From contig JAUVCN010000021.1 in assembly GCA_030595715.1 (NCBI GenBank), forward strand, positions 1 through 34,206: a DNA stretch of 34,206 nucleotides, in the 5' to 3' direction. This DNA is from Thermoplasmatales archaeon (GTDB taxonomy: Archaea; Thermoplasmatota; Penumbrarchaeia; Penumbrarchaeales; Penumbrarchaeaceae). This document shows positions 6,795-30,668 of the stretch, one piece after another. The notes below the pieces were generated by a model. It did no database searches. It saw only the letters and a list, made by a program, of their open reading frames with translations, and was not told the DNA's origin. Both the position numbers and the translations under genes were made by a program. Positions within the stretch are counted from its first letter, which is position 1; each line of letters opens with the position of its first letter.

Positions 6795-9077
6795 GTGAGA
6801 AGATACCTGCCGTGCCTTCTGGCATTGATGTTGATGACAACGTTGATCACTCCTTCAAGCGGTGAAGAGGAAATTGGAGCTCCAACAAGGGCCGAGGGGA
6901 ACATACTGTATGTCTCGGAGACCGGGTCCACATGGTCCAATATATCTGATGCGATCGACAATGCCACCTCCGGTGACACGATAATGATAGCACCCGGTAA
7001 TTATTCATCAGGATTCTTGTTATTGAAGGACTCGATAAATATAATCGGGAATCATACCCAGGGAGATGTCAATATCAAACACATTGGCTCGGAGGCCATC
7101 ATTGGCATTTCAAGCGACCGGTCTAATATTTCCGGATTGAATATCATTGGCGAAGGGACACACCTATTTGCTCTGATGTGCAGTGCATCCAACAACGTCA
7201 CGTTCAGGGATATTGTTATCAGGTCTCTTGTATCGGATGGATTTTTCCTCAGGGACTGTTATGATATCAACATTGAAGGAATGGAAATTAGCTCGGGGAT
7301 ACATCATCCGATGGAGATGCATGATATTGACAGGATGATGATGAAGAACTTCTCGTTCGATACCATCGGTTCAAGATACTCTGTTGGCATCTCGGGTGGA
7401 TGCTACGATATCACCTATCTGAACGGTTCGATCTCCATGAATGATGAGTTCTCTATCGTTTTCAGGACATTGGATGGATTGGACCTGACCATTGATGATG
7501 TTGATACAACGTATCAAGATGGATTCATCAAGATGGAGATGGGGGAAGTTGAGATATTCGATTCCATATTCAATTTTGAAGATGTCATCATTGACTCCAC
7601 GGATGTGAACGATACCGTCAAAGTATTTTTCAGGAAGGATATCAGAGCGTATGGAGAGGACAGATATGGGAGGATGGGGAATATATCTGGTGTGGAATTG
7701 AATCTCACCACAGATGCCGAAATAATGTACAGGACACCGTTCTATGGGGGAACGGATGATGCAAACATCAATCTTTCATACAGAGGCCCGTTCTCATTCC
7801 TTTCAAGGAACTATACGGGAGGAGGTTTCCCATCCACAGCGAACGAAGCTTACCTTCAAGCATATTATCCGGAAGCTGATATGAATGGTTCTTTAGAGAT
7901 AATGGATCTGAACCTATCCAACACTGATCCTATAATTATTGAGTTCAGGGACATCTGGTTCACCAATGGAACCATCTTTGGCCAGGTGAAATACGATGGA
8001 GGACCTCTTAATAACACTCCTGTTGCCAATGCATCTGTTCAGTTATTCATTCCTTTAAGTGCAGAGGATCTTAAAGTCTTTAGATTGAATCCAATTCCAG
8101 ATTACAGTATTGGAAATCTTCAATGGGCACATACAAATTCAACAGGCCATTATGAATTCATGAATATCTCCTTTGGACATCATCTCGGTATTACCATCGG
8201 TCAAGAGGACATGGTGATAAGAGATGGGAACATTTCAGGTTATTATCATGAGGGAGTTGGATTTGCTCATATTCTGAGAGAAACATTACATAAATCATAC
8301 AGTTATATTGTTTATTTCATTGATACTACGGGTCAATTTCCAGATACTCAGATCAATATCTCAGTCCCATACTACGAATACATTCCACCCATGGAAGGAC
8401 CTATCTCCGGGACAGTCAAATTCAATGATAAAGGTCCGAAGGCAAATGAGACCGCTCCTAATGTAACGGTGTCCTTGTTCAACATCACCGGAGACAGGAT
8501 CGGAGAAACCCTCTCCGATGAGAATGGGAACTATACATTTTCCAACATCACGTTCGGAGAAGGCTATGAATTAAGAGCAATGCCATCTCCTGAGGACCTT
8601 GGGATCAACAATAACAGAACCGGATATCTGTTCTGGGACGGTTCCGGGTTCGATCATACGGGAGATACCGTCTTCAATATATCCCTTAAATATTTCCAGT
8701 ACGTAGAACCGGTGATCAAACATCCGAAAGTATTCATCATCGATGATAACAACGACCCCCTCGACCATGTAATGGTAACGATCACTACAGGTGAAGATGA
8801 GTTCACAGCATTTACCAACGAAGATGGTATCGCCGAGTTCAGGGACATTGATGGGATCGAACTCCCGGATGGTGCGGTATTGAAGGCTGAAAAAGATGGA
8901 TATACCACCATCGAATGGAACCAGGGAGATGGGATCCCGAAGATGGAAGAGGAACCCAAAAGGGGAGATGACATCCTCCTTGTATGGGTACTCATAGGAA
9001 TGATCATCCTGATACTGGGATTCGGAATGTATCTTATGATGAAAAAAGGCAAATCCGAAGGTCATCACGAGGAATAG
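6795..9077 (+). CDS. secreted, membrane-anchored surface protein: NosD-like beta-helix plus carboxypeptidase-regulatory-like domains
   Basis: 760 residues. It has a cleavable-looking signal peptide (RRYLPCLLALMLMTTLITPSSG) and a right-handed beta-helix region of the NosD/pectate-lyase type (about 34-330), opening with the typical LYVSETGSTWSNISDAIDNA and GDTIMIAPGNYSSG. Two or three beta-sandwich domains of the carboxypeptidase-regulatory kind follow (about 390-520 and 535-640, each with GxVKxxxxGP and GNYTFSNITFG-like strands), then a final domain (HPKVFIIDDNNDPLDHV). The C-terminus is one membrane helix (VWVLIGMIILILGFGMYLMM) and a short basic/His tail. Many N-X-S/T sequons suggest glycosylation. 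The start is GTG with a purine-rich GGGGGGAAAG upstream. The domain order and ending match the next gene, so the two are paralogues. Ligand or role unknown. Confidence 0.8.
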   Translation: MRRYLPCLLALMLMTTLITPSSGEEEIGAPTRAEGNILYVSETGSTWSNISDAIDNATSGDTIMIAPGNYSSGFLLLKDSINIIGNHTQGDVNIKHIGSEAIIGISSDRSNISGLNIIGEGTHLFALMCSASNNVTFRDIVIRSLVSDGFFLRDCYDINIEGMEISSGIHHPMEMHDIDRMMMKNFSFDTIGSRYSVGISGGCYDITYLNGSISMNDEFSIVFRTLDGLDLTIDDVDTTYQDGFIKMEMGEVEIFDSIFNFEDVIIDSTDVNDTVKVFFRKDIRAYGEDRYGRMGNISGVELNLTTDAEIMYRTPFYGGTDDANINLSYRGPFSFLSRNYTGGGFPSTANEAYLQAYYPEADMNGSLEIMDLNLSNTDPIIIEFRDIWFTNGTIFGQVKYDGGPLNNTPVANASVQLFIPLSAEDLKVFRLNPIPDYSIGNLQWAHTNSTGHYEFMNISFGHHLGITIGQEDMVIRDGNISGYYHEGVGFAHILRETLHKSYSYIVYFIDTTGQFPDTQINISVPYYEYIPPMEGPISGTVKFNDKGPKANETAPNVTVSLFNITGDRIGETLSDENGNYTFSNITFGEGYELRAMPSPEDLGINNNRTGYLFWDGSGFDHTGDTVFNISLKYFQYVEPVIKHPKVFIIDDNNDPLDHVMVTITTGEDEFTAFTNEDGIAEFRDIDGIELPDGAVLKAEKDGYTTIEWNQGDGIPKMEEEPKRGDDILLVWVLIGMIILILGFGMYLMMKKGKSEGHHEE

Positions 9078-9117
9078 TTAAAAAAACCCAATATAATCAG
9101 CATAAAATATCACAGGT

Positions 9118-9127
9118 TTTAAATACC
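9118..9127 (+). promoter_or_regulatory. TATA box of the second surface-protein gene, with ~90-nt 5' leader
   Basis: TTTAAATACC is a strong archaeal TATA element. The expected start of transcription is near 9150, leaving a leader of about 90 nt before ATG 9241, which is long for this window. The leader ends in the strong Shine-Dalgarno GGAAGGAGG, 6 nt before the start codon. Confidence 0.6.
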
Positions 9128-9240
9128 TATACTTTTTAATTCCTTCCGGATAGGATCGCAGGATGATCCAACAGCGGGATGGGATCGAAAATGCACTTGA
9201 ATACCCGATATCCGATCAGTCCTAGGAAGGAGGAAGATCA

Positions 9241-12200
9241 ATGAAAATGACAAATGTAGCGATAAGCTTGATCCTTTTGGCATCAATGTCAGGGGGCCTC
9301 ATTTTGGTCGCGGAGGATGCTGGAGCGGATCAACCAATAGCTCCCACGACAAGATATGTCGCAACTTCCGATTCTACCTATACATCCGTTCAGGATGCAA
9401 TAGATGATTCGGCAGAAGGTGACATGATATACATTGCGAACGGAACATACAACGGGCAGTTGAACATCGGCACCAGTCATCTGCACATCGAGGCGAACTA
9501 CACCGACGAGGTGAAAATAACCCCTGATGTGACCGGACCGACAGCATATGTTGGAAGTGTGACAAATATTACCCTGGTGAACATCAACTTCACATCCCCG
9601 GACTCACAGGCAATGAGGGTTCACCTCTCAGATAATATTACGATGATAAGCTGCACCTTCTGGTCAGGCGGAGGAACCGCAGGTTCATTGTTCATCGACG
9701 AGAACGAAAACATCACCATAATGGGTGATCTCTCCACCGGTTTCACGGTGATCCACTCGGAAAGTGATTTCAGTGATGCACTGAAGATACAGGATTCCGA
9801 GTTCATCTTCTGCTATATTGCACAGATCGAATCCCGGGGGAATTCCGCTGCTGCTGTGGCATTATACAATAAAAATTCCTACGTGGTCATCGCAATGGCT
9901 TCCATTGGTGCAAAAGGTATGAACTCGGATGCCATCGAAGTTGACACCGTCGACTACGGCATGGCATGGGGGATCCTGCCGATATATACCCAGGATATCG
10001 TGGATATCAATTCTGGAAGGTTCATTACAATGGGTGTCAACGTCCCTGATGCGGATGTAAGGGTAGGTTCCGCTGCTGAACTCGGAGTGTTCAATGAGAG
10101 ACTCGTCATCGTCATGGATGAGAATGATGACCCCATCGAGGGAGCGGACATGAAGATGGTCAACAGCTGGGAAGGAGAGATATTTGCCACATCCCATTTT
10201 GGCGGCGTGGAAGGGAAGTCCGATGATGGGGGAGAGTTTGATCATATCCCTGTCCTTAACAGGATCTTCCTGGGTTCCAATACGCCCACCTGGGGTCAGA
10301 ACGACATCACGGTCTACTATGATGGCGGAGATTTCCCGGTTACCATGGCAACGCGGGTGGATGCGAACACATCCGATGATCTGGAGATCACACTTGCCGA
10401 TTTCGAGATACCTGAAGAAGCTGTAAATGTTAAAGCGGAGACCATTTCACACGAGCAGATAGATCTCTCCTTCGAGGCATCACCTGCACTCGATATCGAT
10501 CATTACGAGATATGGGTCGATTCCGGAATGGGATCGGAATGGGATCTGAATACAACTATAGCGGGAACTTACCCTTATTTGGGGATGGTTCCTGATATGA
10601 ACTACAGCTTCAAGGTGATCGCGGTAGATGATATGGGGTATGGCTCTGATGGCATAACGGTCTGGAACATGACCTACCCACCGGTGAACGGGACCATCGA
10701 GGGAATGGTCAAATACATGGGCGGCCCCATGGATGGAATGCCTGCCGTGGGAGCCACAGTTACCCTTGGTCATTCTATCATGGAGTTATTGATAACGACC
10801 ACTGTCAACGAGACCGGGTTCTATTCCTTCGATGAGGTCAAATTCTCGGATGGGTACCTAATGAACGTTGAACCCGTGGACGTCGTTGAAGATATGGGGA
10901 CAGGGTCCGGTTACATCTCCTGGGAAGGAGGATTCGAGCACACTGCACCTCTGGTCAAGAATGTATCGATCCCATACTACACTTATGACAGCGATGAGAT
11001 ATCAGGGATGATCATCTACAGTGGAGGTCCAATAGATGGTATGAACGCCACCAATGCAACCGTTTTCCTCTACAACGAGACAATGGTGGAGATCGAAAAT
11101 ACTACTGTGGGCGAAGACGGCATGTATCTCTTTTCGGATATCGAGTTCGGCATCAACTACACACTGAAGGCCACACCTGTTTCCGCTGTCCCGGACATGG
11201 GAACGGGATCAGGATATGTATCATGGATGTGGACGTTCAACCACACAGGATCCCTTGAAAAGAATATCAGCCTGTCTTACTACGATTATCATTCAGATGA
11301 TATCAAGGGAAAGGTCATCTACATGGGAGGAGACAAAAATGGCCTTAACGCCACCAATGCAACCGTTTTCCTCTACAACGGGACAATGGTGGAGATCGCA
11401 AATGCCACGGTAGGCGAAGACGGTATGTATCTCTTTTCGGACATCGAGTTCGGCATCAACCACACATTGAAGGTCATACCCGTTTCCGCTGTTGAGATGG
11501 GGGGCACAAAATCCGGTTATACGATGAACATGACAGAACTTTTCAACCATACGGGTATACTGACGCAGGACTTCTATGTGCAGTATTACCTCTATGTCGA
11601 ACCCGCCCCTACAACAGGTTCGATCTCGGGAACCGTCATCTATGAGGGAGGAGCAAAGGATGGTACGGTCATCTCCGGTGCAAAGGTATCCCTAATTGAC
11701 GGGGAGGGAGTATATATCAATACCACAACGAATGCGACAGGAGGGTATCTTTTCGAGGATGTTACATTCGGAGATTACGCCATCGAGGTGTTCCCGTCAG
11801 CAGCGGAACAGGGAGAGACCGATGTCAAGAGCGGTTACATGGGAAAAGAAGTGGCCGAATTCACATTTGATTCCGCAACAGGTATCGTGGAGGACGTATC
11901 CCTTGTGTACTACAAATATACACCACCGGTCACATCCCATCCAAGCGTGACCATCGAGGATGAGGATGGAGAACCGCTCGAAGGTGTTCTGGTAACCGTA
12001 ACGATCGGTGATAAGGAATACACTGCTACCACCGGTGCCGATGGTGTGGCCATCTTCGACCAACTCGAAGGAGGGGAGTTCCCTGAAGGGACCGAGTTCA
12101 AAGCCTCTCTCGATGATCATGGAACCATTGAATGGTCCGTGGGGGAGGATGTTCCAAATATGAAGGAGGACAAAGAAGAAGATAACACCCTGATATTTAT

Positions 12201-12285
12201 TCTGATAGCGGTTGTCATCTTGGTCCTTTTGATCGTTGTCTTCATGGCATTCAGGAAGAAGGATGACGGGGCATTTGAAGAGTGA
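9241..12285 (+). CDS. secreted, membrane-anchored surface protein with beta-helix, Fn3-like and four ~100-residue repeats
   Basis: 1014 residues. Signal peptide (about 1-29, ending at AGA), then a NosD-like beta-helix region that opens in the same way as the upstream paralogue (YVATSDSTYTSVQDAIDDS, GDMIYIANGTYNG). An Fn3-like domain sits near 395-480 (IDLSFEASPALDIDHYEIWV). Four ~100-residue carboxypeptidase-regulatory-like units lie at about 483-585, 586-686, 686-790 and 794-898. The last domain (HPSVTIEDEDGEPLEGV) matches the end of the upstream protein. One membrane helix (about 980-1003) and a charged tail finish it. Units 2 and 3 are nearly identical at DNA level over ~150 bp with a 300-bp offset, so this is a recent in-frame duplication. 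Very strong Shine-Dalgarno. It probably projects from the cell surface; a role in adhesion or the cell envelope is inference. Confidence 0.8.
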   Translation: MKMTNVAISLILLASMSGGLILVAEDAGADQPIAPTTRYVATSDSTYTSVQDAIDDSAEGDMIYIANGTYNGQLNIGTSHLHIEANYTDEVKITPDVTGPTAYVGSVTNITLVNINFTSPDSQAMRVHLSDNITMISCTFWSGGGTAGSLFIDENENITIMGDLSTGFTVIHSESDFSDALKIQDSEFIFCYIAQIESRGNSAAAVALYNKNSYVVIAMASIGAKGMNSDAIEVDTVDYGMAWGILPIYTQDIVDINSGRFITMGVNVPDADVRVGSAAELGVFNERLVIVMDENDDPIEGADMKMVNSWEGEIFATSHFGGVEGKSDDGGEFDHIPVLNRIFLGSNTPTWGQNDITVYYDGGDFPVTMATRVDANTSDDLEITLADFEIPEEAVNVKAETISHEQIDLSFEASPALDIDHYEIWVDSGMGSEWDLNTTIAGTYPYLGMVPDMNYSFKVIAVDDMGYGSDGITVWNMTYPPVNGTIEGMVKYMGGPMDGMPAVGATVTLGHSIMELLITTTVNETGFYSFDEVKFSDGYLMNVEPVDVVEDMGTGSGYISWEGGFEHTAPLVKNVSIPYYTYDSDEISGMIIYSGGPIDGMNATNATVFLYNETMVEIENTTVGEDGMYLFSDIEFGINYTLKATPVSAVPDMGTGSGYVSWMWTFNHTGSLEKNISLSYYDYHSDDIKGKVIYMGGDKNGLNATNATVFLYNGTMVEIANATVGEDGMYLFSDIEFGINHTLKVIPVSAVEMGGTKSGYTMNMTELFNHTGILTQDFYVQYYLYVEPAPTTGSISGTVIYEGGAKDGTVISGAKVSLIDGEGVYINTTTNATGGYLFEDVTFGDYAIEVFPSAAEQGETDVKSGYMGKEVAEFTFDSATGIVEDVSLVYYKYTPPVTSHPSVTIEDEDGEPLEGVLVTVTIGDKEYTATTGADGVAIFDQLEGGEFPEGTEFKASLDDHGTIEWSVGEDVPNMKEDKEEDNTLIFILIAVVILVLLIVVFMAFRKKDDGAFEE

Positions 12286-12299
12286 TGTGAGAATGTTTC

Positions 12300-12330
12300 G
12301 AGGGGGGGCAACCCCCCTCATTTTCTTTTA
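12300..12330 (+). terminator. hairpin with GCAA tetraloop plus T-rich tail
   Basis: GAGGGGGG (12300-12307) pairs perfectly with CCCCCCTC (12312-12319) around the loop GCAA, a GNRA tetraloop, followed by the T-rich ATTTTCTTTTA. It starts 15 nt after the stop of the surface-protein gene. It looks like an intrinsic terminator or a 3'-end stabiliser. Confidence 0.7.
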
Positions 12331-12375
12331 ACATGATAGGGACCCTCCTGCTTCAATACTAATTTGTACCATAAT

Positions 12376-12385
12376 GTTTTATAAT
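12376..12385 (+). promoter_or_regulatory. TATA box of the double-propeller gene
   Basis: GTTTTATAAT predicts a transcription start near 12405-12410. This rules against the longest-ORF start at ATG 12394 and favours ATG 12427, which has AGGTGGT about 8 nt upstream. Confidence 0.6.
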
Positions 12386-12426
12386 CGTCCCATATGAATT
12401 CGAATCATATACCAGGTGGTTCAAGG

Positions 12427-15375
12427 ATGATCAACAAAACTGTCTCGACCATTGTCTCTCTTTTCATGGTCCTTACGATGTGGACCCTGATGCCGGTTGA
12501 CGTCAATGTCGAAGGATCGGAAAGTTCGAACACGTCCGGGCAGACCATATGGGATCATGAGGTTCCGTTCAGGGGAATTAAACCTCTTGATGGTATCGCA
12601 ACAGGAGAGATATATACGGATAAACCGGGAGATGAGACGGTCATAACCTCCAGGGACGGAGGCACTTACATCATCTATCTCGAGGATGATCATTGGATCA
12701 AGGAGAAGATATGGGAATCGCCGGGACAGCAGCTCACACCGGCCATCGGCGACCTGAGGACCGACAAGACGGGAAACGAGATCCTTGTTGTCGGTCTCTC
12801 ATCCGGATCCGAAGGTGAGGAACCGGGAGATGGAACCGCAACGGTCCTTATCAGGGAGGGAACCTCCTGGGTCGCAGAACGAGCATACACCGATGATGAG
12901 CTCATTCATGGCTGTGCTATCGGTGATATTGATCCCACCATTCCAGGTGTTGAAGCGGTTTTGACCACTTTCAACCACACTGCTATGATGATCTGGTGGG
13001 ATACCGATCACTGGAACAGCTCGTTCATGTTCTCCGATGGTCACAATATCAGGAAGGCGATCATTGCCGATCTGATCGACACAAATGAGGGGAATGAAGT
13101 GATCTGCGTCTCCAAGTCGGGAAATGCAACACTTGCATATGGAACAGTGGACAACTGGACGTGGGAGAGGATATACCAGGGTGAAAGTCTGGCCAGGGTG
13201 GCAGTGGGCGATGTGGACCCCGATCCGGGTCTGGAGATATACCTGGGTCTGGATGTGGCAGACGGAAGGGTCATTGGTATGAAGTGGACAGGTTCTGAAT
13301 GGATCAACCAGACAGTATTCACTGACACTGACAAGAACAGAGGCGTCTGGACAGGGGATGTCGATCCCACAGTCCCCGGAAATGAACTTTACACCTTCGG
13401 ATACTCGACAAGGCTCGTTCAGGTTACCGGCAGTTTCGCCCTGGGATGGAACTCCAGGGAACTGTTCCGTGATGTGGCAAGGGGGCATGAGATCAGGGTC
13501 GGGGACATACATCCCGAGATCCCTGGAAATGAGATCGGAATTGTTGGTTATTCCAGTAATTTCACTGTTGTATATCCTTCGGAGTGGGTATATGATGTCC
13601 CATTTACCGGGACCGAACCCATTGACGGTATAGCAGTAGGTGAGATCTATCCTGACAGGAAAGGATCCGAGACGGTGATCACATCCCGAGATGGAGGAAC
13701 CTATATCAGCTACAGGGAAGACGGAAATTGGAAGAATGAGAAGATATGGGAATCTCCAGGGCAGCAGTTGACGCCATCCATCGGCGACCTGATCCCTGAA
13801 AGAGAGGGAAATGAGATCCTGGTTGTCGGTCTTTCCTCGGGAGATGAGAATAGCGATCCGGGAGATGGGACTGCAACCGTGCTTTATCGGGATGGAACAT
13901 CCTGGGTACCAACAAGAGCATTCACTGATGACTTTCTCATCCATGGATGCGATATTGGCGACCTTGACCCCAACCATGAAGGGATGGAAGCTGTTCTGAC
14001 AACCTTCAATTTCACAGCTGTGATGATCTGGTGGGAAGATGGTGAATGGCACAATGATCTGATATTCACTGACAGCCATAATGTCAGAAAAGCTGTGATC
14101 GCTGACCTCATCGACACACATGAGGGGAATGAGGTCATCTGCGTTTCAAAATCCGGAAATGCAACACTTGCCTATGGCACCACCGGGAACTGGATCGTTG
14201 AGAGGATCTATTCCGGGATCCCGCTTGCAAGGGTCGCCGTGGGCAATGTCGATCCGGACCCGGGGTTGGAGATATACCTTGGCGGTGATGTTGCCACCGG
14301 CAGTGTCATCGGCCTGAAGTGGACAGGTACCGAGTGGATCGATACGGTGGTATTCGAAGATACTGCAAAGAACAGAGGTGTCTGGACAGGTGATGTCGAT
14401 CCTGATGTTCCGGGACAGGAGCTTTACGCTTATGGATATTCCACAAAACTCACCCAGATAATCGATCCTTTTGGAACCGGTAGATCATCCAGGGAGATCT
14501 ACTCGGATACTGCCAGAGGACACGAGATCAGGATCGGCGACATTGACCCGGATAAAGGAGGAAATGAGATCGGAATTGTTGGATATTCCAAAAGGCTGGT
14601 TGTTGTTTCCCTGCGTGATGAGGGTGAACCTGTCGTCCCAACCTTGACAGGAGAAGGGGCGGCATCATTGAACCATGGCGAGTCAGCTTCTATTGACCTG
14701 ATGGTCGATGGTGAATCATACATGACCCTGGAGGTCTCCGAGATAGAGGGCGCAAGAATATCTCTGCATCCCGAATCTGTATTCATCAAGGGATCCGTCA
14801 AGCTGATGATAGAGGCTGAACATGTGAAGGAGGATATTACAGAGGATGTTACCATCACCCTCCATCATATCGGCGGGACCGTCACCCGAACCGTTTCCAT
14901 ATCGATCACTGGCGATAGTTCCGAACCCGAGGTGGATACGACCTCTGTCTCTGCAGGTGAGGCCATCACATGGGAAGAGCTCGTTAATGTTACCCTCTCC
15001 GAACCTGTGACAAGGTCCTCTTTCGGATCTGCGGTCGGATCGGACAAGATCGGACTGGAGGTCGAAGGAGTTGTTCAGAATGTCGTCTTCACACTATCCG
15101 AAGATGGATCTGTGATATCCGTCTCGATGACAGAGGATGTAGGTAGAGGAGATGCCATCCTGACCATCGGTGGTTTGATGGACCTGGCCGGAAATGAGAT
15201 GGAGACTTTCACACTTGACATCGAGATCAAGAAGGAAGAGAACGATGATCCGGGTTCTACCTGGCTTGTCATTCTCATAATTGCTGTCGTGCTGATCGTC
15301 CTGATCATGACCTTTGTATTCCTCGGAAAGAAAAAAGAGGATGAAGATGATGTACCTGACCTTCCCTCACAGTAG
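12427..15375 (+). CDS. secreted, membrane-anchored protein with two tandem seven-motif beta-propellers and an Ig-like domain
   Basis: 982 residues from ATG 12427 (AGGTGGT ribosome site; ATG 12394 would precede the likely transcription start). Signal peptide MINKTVSTIVSLFMVLTMW. Residues ~42-386 and ~387-730 are two tandem copies of a 345-residue module. Each contains seven G-(D/E)-(I/L/V)-x5-7-G-x-E motifs about 49 residues apart, such as IGDLRTDKTGNEIL, IGDIDPTIPGVEAV and VGDVDPDPGLEIY, which suggests two seven-bladed propellers of FG-GAP/VCBS kind. An Ig-like region of bacterial SbsA type follows (about 850-940, with DLAGNEM). One helix (LVILIIAVVLIVLIMTFVFL) and an acidic/basic tail anchor it. 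The motif aspartates could bind calcium. Binding target unknown. The next gene starts 12 nt after the stop. Confidence 0.8.
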   Translation: MINKTVSTIVSLFMVLTMWTLMPVDVNVEGSESSNTSGQTIWDHEVPFRGIKPLDGIATGEIYTDKPGDETVITSRDGGTYIIYLEDDHWIKEKIWESPGQQLTPAIGDLRTDKTGNEILVVGLSSGSEGEEPGDGTATVLIREGTSWVAERAYTDDELIHGCAIGDIDPTIPGVEAVLTTFNHTAMMIWWDTDHWNSSFMFSDGHNIRKAIIADLIDTNEGNEVICVSKSGNATLAYGTVDNWTWERIYQGESLARVAVGDVDPDPGLEIYLGLDVADGRVIGMKWTGSEWINQTVFTDTDKNRGVWTGDVDPTVPGNELYTFGYSTRLVQVTGSFALGWNSRELFRDVARGHEIRVGDIHPEIPGNEIGIVGYSSNFTVVYPSEWVYDVPFTGTEPIDGIAVGEIYPDRKGSETVITSRDGGTYISYREDGNWKNEKIWESPGQQLTPSIGDLIPEREGNEILVVGLSSGDENSDPGDGTATVLYRDGTSWVPTRAFTDDFLIHGCDIGDLDPNHEGMEAVLTTFNFTAVMIWWEDGEWHNDLIFTDSHNVRKAVIADLIDTHEGNEVICVSKSGNATLAYGTTGNWIVERIYSGIPLARVAVGNVDPDPGLEIYLGGDVATGSVIGLKWTGTEWIDTVVFEDTAKNRGVWTGDVDPDVPGQELYAYGYSTKLTQIIDPFGTGRSSREIYSDTARGHEIRIGDIDPDKGGNEIGIVGYSKRLVVVSLRDEGEPVVPTLTGEGAASLNHGESASIDLMVDGESYMTLEVSEIEGARISLHPESVFIKGSVKLMIEAEHVKEDITEDVTITLHHIGGTVTRTVSISITGDSSEPEVDTTSVSAGEAITWEELVNVTLSEPVTRSSFGSAVGSDKIGLEVEGVVQNVVFTLSEDGSVISVSMTEDVGRGDAILTIGGLMDLAGNEMETFTLDIEIKKEENDDPGSTWLVILIIAVVLIVLIMTFVFLGKKKEDEDDVPDLPSQ

Positions 15376-24632: not shown

Positions 24633-24938
24633 TTAAACCTTCATAATTGTGATATCAGTTACTTTATCGAACTCATCATCAGATGTGATCGGCTGGTCAG
24701 TATCGTTCTTCATTGCTGTAGCAAGACAGAGCGCATCTCCCCATGCAAAAGGGGAGCTGGCCCTGGCATATTCATACTTTTTATCTGAAGATATCAATGC
24801 GGTTTCTACATCCGGAGGAATGATCCTGATCCGGGATTCCCTTATCCAGACGACATACCTATCTGCATCGGTTTCGCCATGCCTCAATGCAATTGATCCC
24901 ATAACCAATTTTGATGTCAACTGATAGAAATAATGCAA
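24633..24938 (-). pseudogene. remnant of a PIN-domain toxin (C-terminal two thirds)
   Basis: The 101-residue frame matches the C-terminal part of the intact PIN protein at 30255-30668 almost residue for residue from DADRYVVWIRESRI to the end (EFDKVTDITIMKV against EFDKVTDIPIMKI). DNA similarity is obvious too (the CCCCATGCAAAAGG block in both). The PIN aspartates of the C-terminal half (WGDALC, TSDDEFD) remain, but the first ~55 residues with the N-terminal Asp and the Glu are replaced by unrelated sequence (MHYFYQLTSKLVMGS). Without these the nuclease site cannot form. No antitoxin gene adjoins it. It is best read as a decayed duplicate of the AbrB/PIN locus. Confidence 0.75.
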
Positions 24939-24940
24939 TA

Positions 24941-25007
24941 TTAAACGGCAATATATTACTCATTATATGTCAATATATACTTTAAACGGCCCTTTCTTAC
25001 CCATTAT
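24941..25007. repeat. imperfect direct repeat upstream of hipBA
   Basis: TTAAACGGC...TTAC-CATTAT occurs at 24941-24966 and again at about 24981-25006, roughly 40 nt apart. The second copy runs into the left arm of the hipB operator dyad. It could be additional operator sites or a remnant of a local duplication. Confidence 0.4.
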
Positions 25008-25035
25008 GTTGTGAAATTGAACAACATTTATATAC
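25006..25035. promoter_or_regulatory. hipBA operator dyad and TATA box
   Basis: ATGTTGT (25006-25012) and ACAACAT (25021-25027) form a perfect 7-bp dyad with an 8-nt spacer. It abuts the TATA element CATTTATATAC (25025-25035), which lies about 27 nt before ATG 25059. Binding of the HTH protein here would block TBP/TFB access, the classic autoregulation of a toxin-antitoxin operon. Confidence 0.6.
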
Positions 25036-25058
25036 CATTCTTATGATATATTTAACAC

Positions 25059-25409
25059 ATGGCGGATGTGATAGATCTCTCACTTGCCACAAGTGAACAA
25101 ATAGAAAAGGCATTGGGTGACAGGATCGAACAGGTAAGGCTATCTCGCAATATCACACAACAGATGCTTGCAGATGAGGCGTCTATTTCCCTGCGTACCA
25201 TTAGACGCCTTGAGAAGGGCGAAGGAACCTCACTTGATACATTCATCCGTGTATTGATAGCATTTGGAATTCAGGAGAATCTGAAGAATATACTACCTGA
25301 TCCGAACGCCCGCCCCATGGAGAGAGTTAGCAATTTGGGTTCGGAAAGAAAAAGAGCTCGCCCTACCGAAACGAATGAAAGCGATATCCCCTGGTCGTGG
25401 GGTGATTGA
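25059..25409 (+). CDS. hipB: HipB-like XRE-family helix-turn-helix antitoxin
   Basis: 116 residues. An XRE/Cro helix-turn-helix spans about 20-75: GDRIEQVRLSRNITQQMLADEASISLRTIRRLEKGEG, with the recognition helix at SLRTIRRLEKG. The C-terminal ~35 residues are polar and probably disordered, ending PWSWGD; in HipB proteins such a tail contacts HipA. It starts at ATG 25059, about 27 nt from the TATA box, so the mRNA is likely leaderless. It is followed after 4 nt by hipA. By analogy it represses its own promoter through the dyad at 25006-25027 and neutralises HipA. Confidence 0.85.
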   Translation: MADVIDLSLATSEQIEKALGDRIEQVRLSRNITQQMLADEASISLRTIRRLEKGEGTSLDTFIRVLIAFGIQENLKNILPDPNARPMERVSNLGSERKRARPTETNESDIPWSWGD

Positions 25410-25413
25410 GAAC

Positions 25414-26718
25414 ATGGTTACGACAAGTGCAAGAGTTATCCTCTGGGGAAAGCAGATCGGAGCGATCTCCTGGCTTGAGGATCGAGAGATAGGAGTATTT
25501 CAATACGACCCTGAGTTTCAAAGAAGTGGCATACAGGTGGCACCATTGTTGATGCCACTGAGAGAATTCCCATATGAGTTTCCAGCTCTGGCAAAGGAGA
25601 CCTTCAAAGGGTTGCCCGGACTCCTGGCAGACTCCATTCCCGACAAATATGGCAATGCAATTATCAATGAATGGCTAGCGTCTCAGGGAAGGACCCCTGA
25701 GAGCTTTAATCCGGTTGAAAGGCTATGTTATACAGGAAGAAGAGGCATGGGAGCCCTGGAGTTCGAACCAGCAACGATCGGACCCTCCGAAAGCAATAAC
25801 AACGTCGAAGTTAACAAACTCATTGATCTTTCAAATAGGATATTGGATGATAGATCGGACATTGGAGGTGCTTTAACAGGAATGGATGATACGGAGGCGA
25901 TACACGACATACTAAGGGTAGGAACCTCAGCAGGAGGCGCCAGGGCAAAGGCAATTTTGGCCTGGCATCCAAAAAGCAATGAATTTCGTTCGGGACAGGT
26001 CGAGATGGAAAGTGGATTCGAACAATGGATCATGAAGTTTGACGGAGTGGCCAACAACCGAGACAGGGAAATGACCGATCCATCGGGATATGGCAAGATA
26101 GAGTACACATACCACCTGATGGCAGTCAAAGCAGGGATCATGATGTCACAGTGCAGGCTTCATCATGAAGGGGGGAGAAGCCATTTCATGACAAAGAGAT
26201 TCGATCGAACATATGAGGGTGGAAAGATCCACATGCAATCTTTGTGTGCGATCGCACATTTCGATTTCAATCAACCTTCCAGCTATTCATATGAACAGGC
26301 CATCTTGACGATGAAAAAAATAGAGCTTCCACATGAAGATCTTGTTCAGCAGGTCCTGCGTACCATATTCAACGTTGTTGGTAGGAACCATGATGACCAT
26401 GTCAAGAACATTGCGTTTTTAATGAATAGAAAAGGGAGATGGAGGTTATCTCCTGCATTTGATGTCATATATGCCTGGAATCCATCCGGTTCTTGGACGG
26501 GTCGCCATCAAATGAGCGTGAATGGCAAACGTGAAGATATTGAACGTGATGATCTACTGGAACTTGCGAGGATCGCAGGTATCAAGAAGAAGAGAGCAAA
26601 TGGCCTGATAGATCGGGTTGAAGAGGCTTTCGATCACTGGTCAGAACTTGCTGCCTCCACCGGTGTTCCGGAAAAACTCATATCAGAGATACAGAGATAT
26701 TTATTGACAGACCTGTAA
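25414..26718 (+). CDS. hipA: HipA-like serine/threonine kinase toxin
   Basis: 434 residues from ATG 25414, which has a perfect GGTGAT Shine-Dalgarno (25401-25406) overlapping the end of hipB; the upstream ATG 25375 inside hipB is less likely. N-terminal HipA subdomain (VILWGKQIGAISWLED, KGLPGLLADSIPDKYG), ligand loop TSAGGARAK (171-179), substrate/C-terminal kinase core with NHDDHVKN (catalytic Asp at 327, metal-binding Asn at 332) and the DFG-equivalent PAFDVIYAW (Asp 350). All residues needed for kinase activity are present, and it is full length. In bacteria HipA phosphorylates glutamyl-tRNA synthetase and halts translation; the archaeal target is unknown. The HipBA type is unusual in archaea, so horizontal transfer is likely. 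Confidence 0.88.
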   Translation: MVTTSARVILWGKQIGAISWLEDREIGVFQYDPEFQRSGIQVAPLLMPLREFPYEFPALAKETFKGLPGLLADSIPDKYGNAIINEWLASQGRTPESFNPVERLCYTGRRGMGALEFEPATIGPSESNNNVEVNKLIDLSNRILDDRSDIGGALTGMDDTEAIHDILRVGTSAGGARAKAILAWHPKSNEFRSGQVEMESGFEQWIMKFDGVANNRDREMTDPSGYGKIEYTYHLMAVKAGIMMSQCRLHHEGGRSHFMTKRFDRTYEGGKIHMQSLCAIAHFDFNQPSSYSYEQAILTMKKIELPHEDLVQQVLRTIFNVVGRNHDDHVKNIAFLMNRKGRWRLSPAFDVIYAWNPSGSWTGRHQMSVNGKREDIERDDLLELARIAGIKKKRANGLIDRVEEAFDHWSELAASTGVPEKLISEIQRYLLTDL

Positions 26719-26763
26719 GGCCCGGGAAAGCAAATGGTGAACCCTGTGACCCCTTCCGAGATC

Positions 26764-27021
26764 ATGAGGAAATGTATCATCTGTGGTAGGAACTTGAGGA
26801 TCGAACTCCATGAAAGCGGGGAGTACACCGGAGACCATTTTTTTAGAAAGGTCAGAATTCCGGTGGGAGATGGTGAGAATAGATCACTCGCGCCACACTC
26901 ACTATTGAGTATCTCTACACTTGGTCTCCATTCCCCCCTTCCTGACGCAAGAGCGGGAGGGAATCACGGATTTTTTACTGGGTTTCACACTTTTGATGAC
27001 GGAGATAATGATACAACCTAA
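26764..27021 (+). pseudogene. 5' part of a small zinc-finger gene, truncated
   Basis: From ATG 26764 the first ~40 residues look like a real protein: a CxxC finger (KCIICGRNLRIEL) followed by HESGEYTGDHFFRKVRIPVG. I recall small archaeal proteins of this shape that carry a second CxxC near the end, but this frame loses all such character after GDGENR (about position 26884) and runs on through a terminator-like hairpin into the inverted-repeat element before stopping at 27021. The missing second cysteine pair points to a broken gene. The extension upstream to 26734 is probably untranslated. Low to moderate confidence. Confidence 0.4.
26930..26976 (+). terminator. hairpin and T6 after hipBA
   Basis: ATTCCCCCC (26930-26938) pairs with GGG (26955-26957) and GGGAAT (26959-26964), with one bulged A, around a 16-nt loop. 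T6 follows at 26971-26976. It is a plausible transcription end for the hipBA transcript. Confidence 0.5.
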
Positions 27022-27110
27022 CTTTGACATATCGAGCATAGATGAGTGTCAAAGTGAGGCTTCTCCCAACATTGAAAGGCTCGGATCATATTAGATATGT
27101 CAATGTTGGG
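27017..27110 (-). repeat. inverted-repeat (MITE-like) element, copy 1
   Basis: 94 bp, bounded by CCTAACTTTGACATAT at the left and ATATGTCAATGTTGGG at the right (imperfect terminal inverted repeats). The flanks are ATACAA and ATAAAA, a 5/6 match that may be a worn 6-bp target duplication. Orientation is opposite to copies 2 and 3. On the + strand it holds a frame starting at ATG 27042 (MSVKVRLLPTLKGSDHIRYV) that is shared with the other copies. Confidence 0.8.
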
Positions 27111-27170
27111 ATAAAAAATAGACTAACTCAATATTCCGAGCCAGATGTATCCTTATTTCTGACAAATATA

Positions 27171-28328
27171 TCATGAACGTTTCTCATGGGGATATTCGTG
27201 TGCCCGTTTCTGGAAATCGAGTATCTCGACATTTTGGATCACGCCGTTCTCGATCTCAATGGCTTTCCGAATAATACGATTCTTGTCCCAACCTGTTGTT
27301 CCGGACATGACGGTTTCAATAAAGGGACATAATGCGTTACTGATCTCGTATGATGCGGCATTGTATAGATATGTTGGCGAATGGTCCACTGCATAATAGG
27401 TGACCTGCCCTTCTGCACCCACCTGAAATGTTGGCTGTTCAAATGAAGTCGGCCTTGCAAACTCGAAACCCATTCCAGCATCGCAGCTTACGTCAATTAT
27501 GACTGATAATGGCCGCATATCACCTACTTCATTGTCTTCGATGAACATCAGTGGGTCATTGGGATCCTGTAGGATACAATTAATAATGATATCATATTTT
27601 GCAAGCTCAACAGCCATAGGAACAGAAGGTTGTTCTTCATTCTTGATAACATGCACCTTTTTACTGCACTTTTCGGTAACATATTGATGATGTTTTAATG
27701 TCGGGATGGGGCCGGTCAGCGCATACCCCGGCCGTTTGGTAAAAAGTGTTATGTCGGTAATCCCTAACCCCTTCAGACAATGTATCGCCCCACGACCGGT
27801 TGACCCGAAACTCAGTACCGCAGCCCTCTTGCTCTGCCCGTAATGCCCTGTGATGCCAGCAATTTGAAGTGCATGAAGTGTGCTGCAATAACCGGCCATC
27901 TCATTGTTTTTGTGAAAGATGTGTAGGTCTCTGATCTGTTCGGATTTCCAGAGGAACATTGCCTCAAAAGCAATATAGGTCAGTTTTTTATCAATGCCCA
28001 CCTGGGTTATCGCCTCTCCCTGGACACAATGAGGCCAGCCCCATAATACCTGACCTTCGCGAAAGTATTGGAAATCTCCTTCTGTGGGTTTTGGAAGAAG
28101 AACGATATCACACTTTTCAAATAACTCAGGTTTGGAGAGAACCCCTGCCGAATATGAGCGGAGATAGTCGTCATCGAAGCCAAACTTTTGGCTATAACCG
28201 GTTTCGAAATATATACGCTTTCGAAATTCCTCGGGAATATTGGGTATATGTGCTGGATGTATCGGAATTCGAAATTCGTTCTCTTTGGAGGAAGTACCGA
28301 TCACTCCCATTGTAAGTTCTCCGGTCAT
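27171..28328 (-). CDS. N5-(carboxyethyl)ornithine synthase / alanine dehydrogenase-like protein
   Basis: 385 residues. The order of motifs matches the AlaDH/CEOS/saccharopine-dehydrogenase fold: N-terminal KENEFRIPIHPAHI (arginine and histidine of the substrate site), YFETGYSQKFG, EGQVLWGWPHCVQ, YIAFEAMF, HKNNEMAGYCSTLHALQIAG, then the dinucleotide-binding VLSFGSTGRGAIHCL (GSTGRG at 175-180), IDVSCDAGMGFEFARPTSFE and YYAVDHSPTYLYNAAS. The sequence is nearest in style to N5-(carboxyethyl)ornithine synthase, which reductively joins pyruvate and ornithine with NADPH; lysine- or alanine-acting relatives are possible. It is longer than CEOS (about 310-320) by a C-terminal extension. It starts at ATG 28328 with a TATA-like CATTTATAG near 28347-28355; ATG 28310 is an alternative. 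It lies alone between two inverted-repeat copies. Confidence 0.75.
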   Translation of the reverse strand: MTGELTMGVIGTSSKENEFRIPIHPAHIPNIPEEFRKRIYFETGYSQKFGFDDDYLRSYSAGVLSKPELFEKCDIVLLPKPTEGDFQYFREGQVLWGWPHCVQGEAITQVGIDKKLTYIAFEAMFLWKSEQIRDLHIFHKNNEMAGYCSTLHALQIAGITGHYGQSKRAAVLSFGSTGRGAIHCLKGLGITDITLFTKRPGYALTGPIPTLKHHQYVTEKCSKKVHVIKNEEQPSVPMAVELAKYDIIINCILQDPNDPLMFIEDNEVGDMRPLSVIIDVSCDAGMGFEFARPTSFEQPTFQVGAEGQVTYYAVDHSPTYLYNAASYEISNALCPFIETVMSGTTGWDKNRIIRKAIEIENGVIQNVEILDFQKRAHEYPHEKRS

Positions 28329-28730
28329 GTAAAAAGAATCATGGTTCAGCTATAAATGATTTTTAGACATGGATCTGTATCCGGATATGACGATAATGAG
28401 ATAATCCCCGTCAAGTTTTTTAATAAAAATGGCACATCATGAACTCTGCGCTCGATTCTCTCGCTTGCCTCACTTTGTTCGATCAGATAACTGCCACATT
28501 AATTAGCCTCGTTGCGCCGCATTTTTATCTACGTCACTTACTGCTTCAAACTTCTAATTTGTACACAGTGTCTAGCTTCCGTACTTCGATAAAAATGGGC
28601 TCACTCGTACCAAATTGGCTTGGCCCAACCGAGGCGACCTCATGTCGCGGACCGTAAAACGGTGTGCTTCCAGAATGCTTACATTATAGCTTCTAAAATG
28701 CACCGATCCCAGCGCCACATCGGCCTGTAG
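28329..28730. other. gene-poor stretch with an 80-bp inverted-repeat structure
   Basis: No convincing gene. CATTTTTATC (28519-28528) and GATAAAAATG (28588-28597) form a perfect 10-bp inverted repeat about 80 bp across, perhaps an old element of another kind. A short block at 28431 (GGCACATCATGAACTCTG) resembles one at 29772 (GGCACCTCATGAGCTCTG), so this stretch and the 29.8-kb gap may share ancestry. GCCTCACTTTG at 28466-28476 also recalls part of the copy 2 sequence, possibly by chance. Confidence 0.35.
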
Positions 28731-28823
28731 CCCAACATTGACATATCGAATATGATCTGAACCTGTATATGTTGGGAGAAGCCTCACTTTGATACTTATC
28801 TGAAATCATATGTCAAAGTTAGG
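28731..28823 (+). repeat. inverted-repeat (MITE-like) element, copy 2
   Basis: 93 bp from CCCAACATTGACATAT to ATATGTCAAAGTTAGG. Immediate flanks are CTGTAG on both sides, a perfect 6-bp target duplication. The interior can fold into two hairpins: CCCAACA/TGTTGGG and AGCCTCACTTTGA/TCAAAGTTAGGCT (one mismatch). The conserved frame lies on the - strand with ATA in place of the ATG of copies 1 and 3. Confidence 0.85.
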
Positions 28824-28897
28824 CTGTAGGGCCGACCAACTTTATTTAATAGGCTATGTTATCTGCCATCGAATATTGCGATCTTAGAAAGAATATT

Positions 28898-28932: not shown

Positions 28933-29166
28933 TTGCCAAACATCACACTATCAGTACCTGAAGAGATCCACACCATAATGAAGCAACATGGTGAGATCAG
29001 ATGGAGTGAGGTCGCCAGAAGGGCCATATCAGATTATGCAAAAAAATTAGCCCTTCTCGATGCTCTAACTAAAAACAGTGAACTTACCGAAGAGGACATA
29101 ATGGAGCTGGATGAGAAGGTAAAGAGAGGGATCTATAACCATTACAGAAGGAAGCAATCCTCATGA
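28933..29166 (+). CDS. vapB: VapB-like ribbon-helix-helix antitoxin
   Basis: 77 residues. The N-terminus reads as a ribbon-helix-helix: strand [11 protein letters not shown], helix HTIMKQHGE and helix [21 protein letters not shown]. The acidic/basic C-terminal helix ([26 protein letters not shown]) probably inserts into the toxin active site. The start codon is TTG 28933 with AGGTGA 6-7 nt upstream. The end overlaps the toxin start by 4 nt (ATGA), the usual coupling in VapBC operons. The dyads at 28898-28922 are the likely autoregulatory site. Confidence 0.8.
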
Positions 29167-29615
29167 AAGTGGTCATTGATTCCAATCGTATTATGGCGGG
29201 TCTCATTAGAAATTCCACTTCTAGAGTAATTATCCTCAGTGAAGAATTCGATTTCATTGCACCTGATTTCCTTGTCGCCGAGATCGATAAATACAGGGAT
29301 TATCTCATGAGGAAGTCCAAACAGACCGAAAGGGAATTTGATCTTACCATGTTAACCCTATTTCAAAGAGTAGAACTCATCCCTGAAGATGAATTCATTG
29401 ATAGCATGAAGATAGCCGAAGAAGTCATGAGAAGTGTTGACATAAAAGATGCCCCATTCCTTGCTGTTGGTTTGGCCTGTAAAACAGAAGGGATCTGGAG
29501 TGAGGACAAGGATTTCGATAAACAGAATTTGCTCATCAGGTATTCAACAAGGGACATGATCGACTTCCTTGTGGAAAATCCTTCACAAAGAGATCAGAAA
29601 ATGCATCACCGCTAA
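29163..29615 (+). CDS. vapC: VapC-like PIN-domain endoribonuclease toxin
   Basis: 150 residues. PIN-domain acidic residues are all present: D6 ([12 protein letters not shown]), E40 (FLVAEIDKY), D96 ([12 protein letters not shown]) and D115/D117 (WSEDKDF). They would hold one or two Mg2+ ions for RNA cleavage, with tRNA or rRNA the usual target of VapC. The N-terminal [10 protein letters not shown] and the fold order fit the PIN_3 subgroup. ATG 29163 overlaps the vapB stop. Complete and apparently functional. Confidence 0.82.
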
Positions 29616-29959: not shown

Positions 29960-30154
29960 CCCAACTTTGACAGATCGAATATGATCTGAACCGACACTTT
30001 CTGAGTGAATACTTTCACGAAGATAAGACGAATCTACTGATTCGTTGGCACGGCGAAGGTTGGATGAATCTACTGATTCATCAGGATCTGAACCTGTCAA
30101 TTTTGGGAGAGGCCTCACTTTGACACTCATCTGTACTCATATGTCAAAGTTAGG
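29960..30154 (+). repeat. inverted-repeat (MITE-like) element, copy 3 (expanded)
   Basis: 195 bp with ends CCCAACTTTGACAGAT and ATATGTCAAAGTTAGG, flanked on both sides by CTGCAT (perfect 6-bp target duplication). It is 102 bp longer than copy 2. The extra DNA includes two 36-bp in-frame tandem units, each with a small hairpin: ACGAATC-TACT-GATTCGT (30028-30045) and GATGAATC-TACT-GATTCATC (30063-30082). Confidence 0.85.
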
Positions 30155-30254
30155 CTGCATATGGTCATTTCAAATGAAAGGACTCGGCAGACAAGAATAC
30201 ACAGGAAATAGGACATCCCATCTCCTGGAACCAGTTCACACATTTCTCATATCA

Positions 30255-30668
30255 TTATATCTTCATTATCGGAATATCCGTTACCTTGTCAAATTCCCTA
30301 TCCGCCGTTATCAGAACATCTGCATTGTTGTTCAAGGCTGTTGATAGACAGAACGCATCACCCCATGCAAAAGGAGAGCTCGCCCTGGCATACGAGTGTT
30401 TCTTCACCGATGACATGATCGCAGTATCGATATCAGGTGGAATGATCGATATCCGGGATTCCCTTATCCAGACAACATACCTGTCCGCGTCTTCTTCCGA
30501 TGCGATCCGGGTCAATGCCCTGTGGAACTCCGCAAGGTTCACGGTGGAGATGATACCTTCCGACCTTCCTTCCTCGATCTCGGTCATTGCCGAATCCAGA
30601 TCTGGATCCCGTCTCTGTTCCACGATGTAGATCACAAGGGCTGAAGCATCGAGGCAATATCTTCTCAT
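30255..30668 (-). CDS. PIN-domain endoribonuclease toxin (VapC-like), partner of an AbrB antitoxin
   Basis: 137 residues with a complete PIN active site: D7 (RYCLDASALVIYI), E47 (TVNLAEFHRAL), D104 (FAWGDAFCLSTAL) and D123 (LITADREFD). The start ATG 30668 overlaps the antitoxin stop by 4 nt. Expected to cleave RNA when released from its antitoxin. The truncated remnant at 24633-24938 derives from a close relative of this gene, which shows the locus has been copied within the island. Confidence 0.85.
   Translation of the reverse strand: MRRYCLDASALVIYIVEQRRDPDLDSAMTEIEEGRSEGIISTVNLAEFHRALTRIASEEDADRYVVWIRESRISIIPPDIDTAIMSSVKKHSYARASSPFAWGDAFCLSTALNNNADVLITADREFDKVTDIPIMKI

Follow-up and report, generated by a model that had tools for sequence, protein, structure and literature searches.

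hipBA modules are found chiefly in bacteria (Gerdes et al. 2021, PMC8262856), and in E. coli K-12, as in clades I, II and IV–VIII of that survey, hipB lies upstream of hipA, an order shared by the locus described here. The known targets of characterised HipA relatives are tRNA synthetases (PMC8262856). In E. coli, HipB, whose tail is degraded by Lon, binds cooperatively to four sites with the operator sequence TATCC-N8-GGATA (PMC3376134). We found no experimental tests of archaeal HipA kinases in the literature.

We analysed a 34,206 nt stretch (the window) on the forward strand of contig JAUVCN010000021.1 (assembly GCA_030595715.1), assigned to a Thermoplasmatales archaeon of the GTDB lineage Thermoplasmatota; Penumbrarchaeia; Penumbrarchaeales; Penumbrarchaeaceae. 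The host genome is archaeal, as shown by its SSU rRNA and by the presence of several TBP genes. A preliminary description made from the sequence had reported a complete hipBA module with a clean HTH in HipB and all catalytic residues in HipA, and both genes were found at that place with the following features:

25059–25409, plus strand: hipB, antitoxin/repressor of 116 aa, HTH at residues 23–72 (HTH_3, E 4.9e-10)
25392–25406, plus strand: HipB C-terminal tail W-S-W-G-D, the final two codons being GGTGAT (25401–25406)
25414–26718, plus strand: hipA, Ser/Thr kinase toxin of 434 aa (HipA_C, 1.4e-47; Couple_hipA, 2e-19)
25918–25950, plus strand: Gly-rich loop VGTSAGGARAK, by alignment, including Ser172, the counterpart of the autophosphorylated S150
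26392–26409, plus strand: catalytic loop DDHVKN (D327, N332), by alignment
26461–26463, plus strand: Mg-binding Asp D350, by alignment
26734–26890, plus strand: 5′ portion of an ORF lying 3′ of hipA and moving together with the module, broken after ~26890 in the window

The HTH_3, Couple_hipA and HipA_C matches were all above the Pfam curated cut-offs, and the hipB stop codon ends 4 bp 5′ of the hipA ATG. As in E. coli K-12, HipA is full-length, with the Couple_hipA N-subdomain and the HipA_C kinase core in one chain; it has the Gly-rich loop with its adjacent Ser, the catalytic Asp and Asn and the Mg-binding Asp, and it is preceded by an adjacent HTH antitoxin gene whose product keeps the conserved C-terminal Trp. 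Several upstream palindromic operators are also common to both, those of the window (O1 and O2, below) being predicted by matrix. On the other hand, the archaeal HipA is just ~16% identical to that of E. coli K-12 on structural match, and the archaeal module has a different operator sequence and an archaeal TATA promoter, with neither sigma70 boxes nor a promoter-proximal operator. The locus is not a hipBST module, as the N-subdomain is fused within HipA (residues 7–117) and there is no separate hipS, nor does it belong to YjjJ/HipH, since the HTH is encoded by a separate gene and the YjjJ model gave 41.7 bits against a cut-off of 401. The NCBIfam hipB and YjjJ models both match below their cut-offs.

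In a profile alignment of 22 homologues, HipA residues S172, K208, D327, N332 and D350 correspond to S150, K181, D309, N314 and D332 of E. coli K-12 HipA and are invariant in 22/22. The AlphaFold model of HipA, of mediocre to moderate quality (pLDDT 71) and used for fold confirmation only, matched the HipA of E. coli and Shewanella best among solved structures. The preliminary description had named an inactive kinase as an argument against its own reading; at the sequence level no catalytic residue is lost. Among the archaeal copies dN/dS was 0.09–0.20 for hipA and 0.18–0.32 for hipB, so that both genes are under purifying selection, which argues that the kinase is maintained. HipA probably has Ser/Thr kinase activity.

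In HipB, W112 and W114 were invariant in 19 sequences, within a conserved W-x-W-G-D tail pattern. The GGTGAT had been described as a site coupling the two genes; it lies 7 nt 5′ of the hipA ATG and is well placed as the hipA ribosome-binding site. However, it doubles as the codons for the final Gly-Asp of HipB and the same six bases occur in two bacterial loci (L006 and L010), so it does not specifically point to coupling of an archaeal kind.

HipA_C matches were detected in 16/390 genomes of the host's phylum, in agreement with the mostly bacterial distribution that the preliminary description had stated and that Gerdes et al. (PMC8262856) reported, and the hipBA module in 2/12 genomes of the host's class. 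HipA of the window type was seen only in the host genome (2 copies) and in one other genus of the family. We refer to these three archaeal copies as the window copy, L002 (G000:C192, same genome) and L004 (the other genus). The best 80 loci from 84,980 genomes were all bacterial, with HipA identities of 49–72%. In the best bacterial relative, a Desulfobacterales locus, hipB is syntenic, 63% identical and keeps the C-terminal W-x-W. In the tree, the three archaeal HipA copies formed a group (100/100) within an 11-row clade (96/98) that also takes in Desulfobacterales, Opitutaceae, Chloroflexota, Planctomycetota, Electryoneota and Bacteroidia. The other archaeal family of the phylum with HipA_C matches (f19, L086–L088) likewise encodes HipA_C kinases, but these form a separate, distant branch, and forcing the archaeal copies together with them was 55 log units worse (p-AU 1.8e-5), by which vertical archaeal ancestry is rejected. 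The phylogeny, which the preliminary description had proposed as a check, thus nests the copies in a bacterial clade and not in a vertically inherited archaeal one, and supports horizontal acquisition of the module from bacteria, as judged by sequence. GC and GC3 of hipBA are slightly below those of most neighbouring genes, which is not decisive. A transfer vehicle was not identified among IMG/VR sequences (five matches, ≤53% identity) or plasmids (≤60%, the best in alphaproteobacteria).

Upstream of hipB we identified the following elements:

24941–24966, no strand: predicted operator O1, TTAAACGGCAATATATTACTCATTAT, 19.8 bits, best of 34181 window positions
24982–25007, no strand: predicted operator O2, TTAAACGGCCCTTTCTTACCCATTAT, 13.4 bits, second best in the window, its centre 41 bp from that of O1
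25006–25027, no strand: 7-bp dyad ATGTTGT-N8-ACAACAT, its right arm on the BRE, probably not an operator
25021–25034, plus strand: putative BRE (25021–25026) and TATA box TTTATATA (25027–25034), from the tRNA-promoter matrix

For the operator model, we derived a 26-bp palindromic matrix exclusively from sequences upstream of bacterial hipB genes. The third-ranked window position gave 11.5 bits, and the null count was 0 in 20,000 simulated sequences, a figure valid for that one null model. O1 has a counterpart at −118 in both other archaeal copies, and the 41-bp spacing, found in 3/3 archaeal copies, is also the commonest in bacteria (13 cases); O2 is weakly palindromic (5/13 pairs). A genome-wide scan allowing ≤2 mismatches, with a pattern written with the archaeal sites in view and a reversed control that gave three chance matches, returned four sites, namely O1 and O2 of both host hipBA copies. 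The archaeal half-site TAATMGGYAA resembles that of the close bacteria and accompanies the recognition helix SLRTIGRL, whereas a proteobacterial group has the half-site TAATGCGTCA with the helix SRSTLTRL. O1 and O2 are thus likely HipB operators, to which HipB would be expected to bind.

The closest bacterial loci, from Desulfobacterales (L006), Planctomycetota (L017), Electryonea (L008), Opitutaceae (L007, L011) and Chloroflexota (L009, L010), share 64–72% HipA identity, a syntenic hipB, the half-site TAATMGGCAA where sites were scored and, in several, the 41-bp operator spacing. They differ in their bacterial hosts and in mostly having sigma70-like boxes upstream of hipB: a TTGAC-type box with a TATATT −10 is present in L006, L007, L008 and L017, and in three of them (L006, L008 and L017) the −10 is within an operator 55 bp before hipB. 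No comparable sigma70-type pair was found upstream of hipB in the archaeal copies. Instead, the archaeal promoter and TATA box of the preliminary description were borne out with a matrix built from the host genome's own tRNA promoters, on which ACATTTATATACCAT at 25024–25038 scored 9.1 bits against a window 99.9th percentile of 6.3. The BRE and TATA box are identical at 13/14 positions across the three archaeal copies. As the TATA box is centred ~28 bp before the hipB ATG, and given the usual archaeal TATA-to-start distance, the hipB mRNA is probably leaderless or nearly so.

Repressors in archaea usually act at the BRE, and factors bound further upstream often activate. The dyad at 25006–25027, which the preliminary description had taken for the operator, exists as described, and its position on the BRE would allow HipB to repress by covering that element; moreover, its centre is roughly at the proximal bacterial operator position, 42 bp before hipB, and its N8 spacing resembles the E. 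coli TATCC-N8-GGATA (PMC3376134). Nevertheless, a 7-bp dyad of some spacing appeared in 29% of shuffles (1.8% with the spacing fixed at 8), that is, at chance level in AT-rich DNA; just 5/7 arm pairs are retained in L002 and L004, the operator model gave −1 to −11 bits for 26-bp windows around its centre, and it is unlike the half-site of the close relatives. Its poor conservation and low matrix score lead us to reject it as the principal operator, and we hold an operator role for it to be quite improbable. With O1 and O2 as the predicted operators, a gap of ~14 bp separates the end of O2 from the BRE downstream. HipB bound there would not necessarily hinder TBP/TFB, and plain steric exclusion is not evident; repression may depend on cooperativity, or HipB may work in some other way. 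At these sites HipB could activate transcription, or repress it cooperatively by bridging DNA, instead of blocking it sterically as in bacteria, given that both operators end upstream of the BRE and that the promoter-proximal bacterial site overlapping the −10 is missing. Yet two cooperative HipA–HipB complexes could still occlude the promoter, and we regard such a departure as unlikely, if deserving more weight than an operator at the dyad. Somewhat more plausible, though still tentative, is a cross-domain rewiring of the promoter, in which the repressor, its half-site specificity and the 41-bp spacing would have been kept while BRE/TATA replaced the sigma70 boxes, leaving HipB control with a non-bacterial geometry.

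Among the three archaeal copies, hipA DNA is ~92–95% identical; the window module as a whole shares 91–92% identity with the other two, whereas neighbouring orthologues between the same genomes share 65–79% DNA identity. A recent move of the module between genera is therefore probable, and on this comparison it is probably still mobile within the family. Similarity between copies begins at or just before O1 (24912–24942) and ends at ~26890, which outlines the mobile unit. It takes in part of the small, cysteine-containing ORF 3′ of hipA (26734–27021 in the window, where it is broken; 1147–1407 in L002; 1228–1482 in L004), which is intact at 84–86 aa in L002 and L004. The HipA of L002 is 93% identical to that of the window, but its gene lacks the usual ATG and the GGTGAT of the window copy and may thus be silent or begin at a different start codon. 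C192, a contig of 6.8 kb, may be misbinned, because along most of its length it shares 90–93% identity with the contig from the other genus.

Two related PIN-domain (VapC-like) sequences were detected on the minus strand. The one at 24633–24938 is truncated and abuts O1; the other (30255–30668) is 92.5% identical over 187 bp to a sequence just upstream of the C192 hipBA. A dispersed repeat of ~103 bp (27011–27113, 28728–28828 and 30085–30160) has 10 matches in the genome, and one copy sits at a terminus of the hipBA contig from the other genus. Two inverted copies flank an AlaDh/PNT-like dehydrogenase gene (27171–28328) found in just 1/16 other relatives tested (G010, 61%), a patchy distribution like that of hipBA. 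A possible VapB–VapC-like pair at 28933–29615 gave weak model matches only. Farther away, 6795–15375 encodes three large proteins, two with carboxypeptidase-regulatory-like or SdrD/SpaA-type domains and a third with no Pfam match and an internal duplication.

If the contig were bacterial contamination in an archaeal bin, there would be no archaeal hipBA to explain; the assembly is a draft of 197 contigs with 1.85% contamination, and C192 is short. However, the helicase gene beside hipBA is matched at 78–79% DNA identity in further genomes of this archaeal family, which makes the placement of the window contig secure; another genus of the family has a HipA of 94% identity, and in 3/3 archaeal copies the sigma70 boxes are replaced by a TATA box of archaeal type. 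Given these family-level matches of flanking genes, we consider a contaminant contig extremely improbable. A domesticated regulator and kinase that has lost its toxin function, kept for example for defence or stress signalling, would agree with the purifying selection on hipBA and with the downstream ORF travelling along. The patchy presence of the module in the class and its near-identity across genera fit a mobile toxin-antitoxin module better, and domestication seems to us improbable, though far less so than contamination.

The locus is best explained as a transferred example of a known toxin-antitoxin module, with bacterial operators and an archaeal core promoter. The preliminary description had likewise suggested a transferred kinase toxin under an archaeal promoter, and the tree, the bacterial-type operators and the TATA box all speak for it. 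We consider it probable that the whole system is an autoregulated kinase toxin working as follows. A bacterial hipBA would have entered the archaeal family horizontally, HipB operators included, and would since have been moved or copied within it, while the donor-type sigma70 −35/−10 boxes and the promoter-proximal operator were presumably lost. The archaeal BRE/TATA would now drive a hipB–hipA mRNA, and HipB dimers on O1 and O2, together with HipA, may autoregulate the operon, by analogy with E. coli. HipA would be restrained by HipB and by autophosphorylation of Ser172; upon loss of HipB it would arrest growth, an aminoacyl-tRNA synthetase being the most likely substrate.

HipA kinases are rare among archaea. 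Since the protein and operators of this module look bacterial and its core promoter archaeal, it may offer a compact, testable system for asking how a toxin that represses its own operon copes with transfer to a domain whose transcription machinery differs, and whether HipA is able to attack an archaeal tRNA synthetase.
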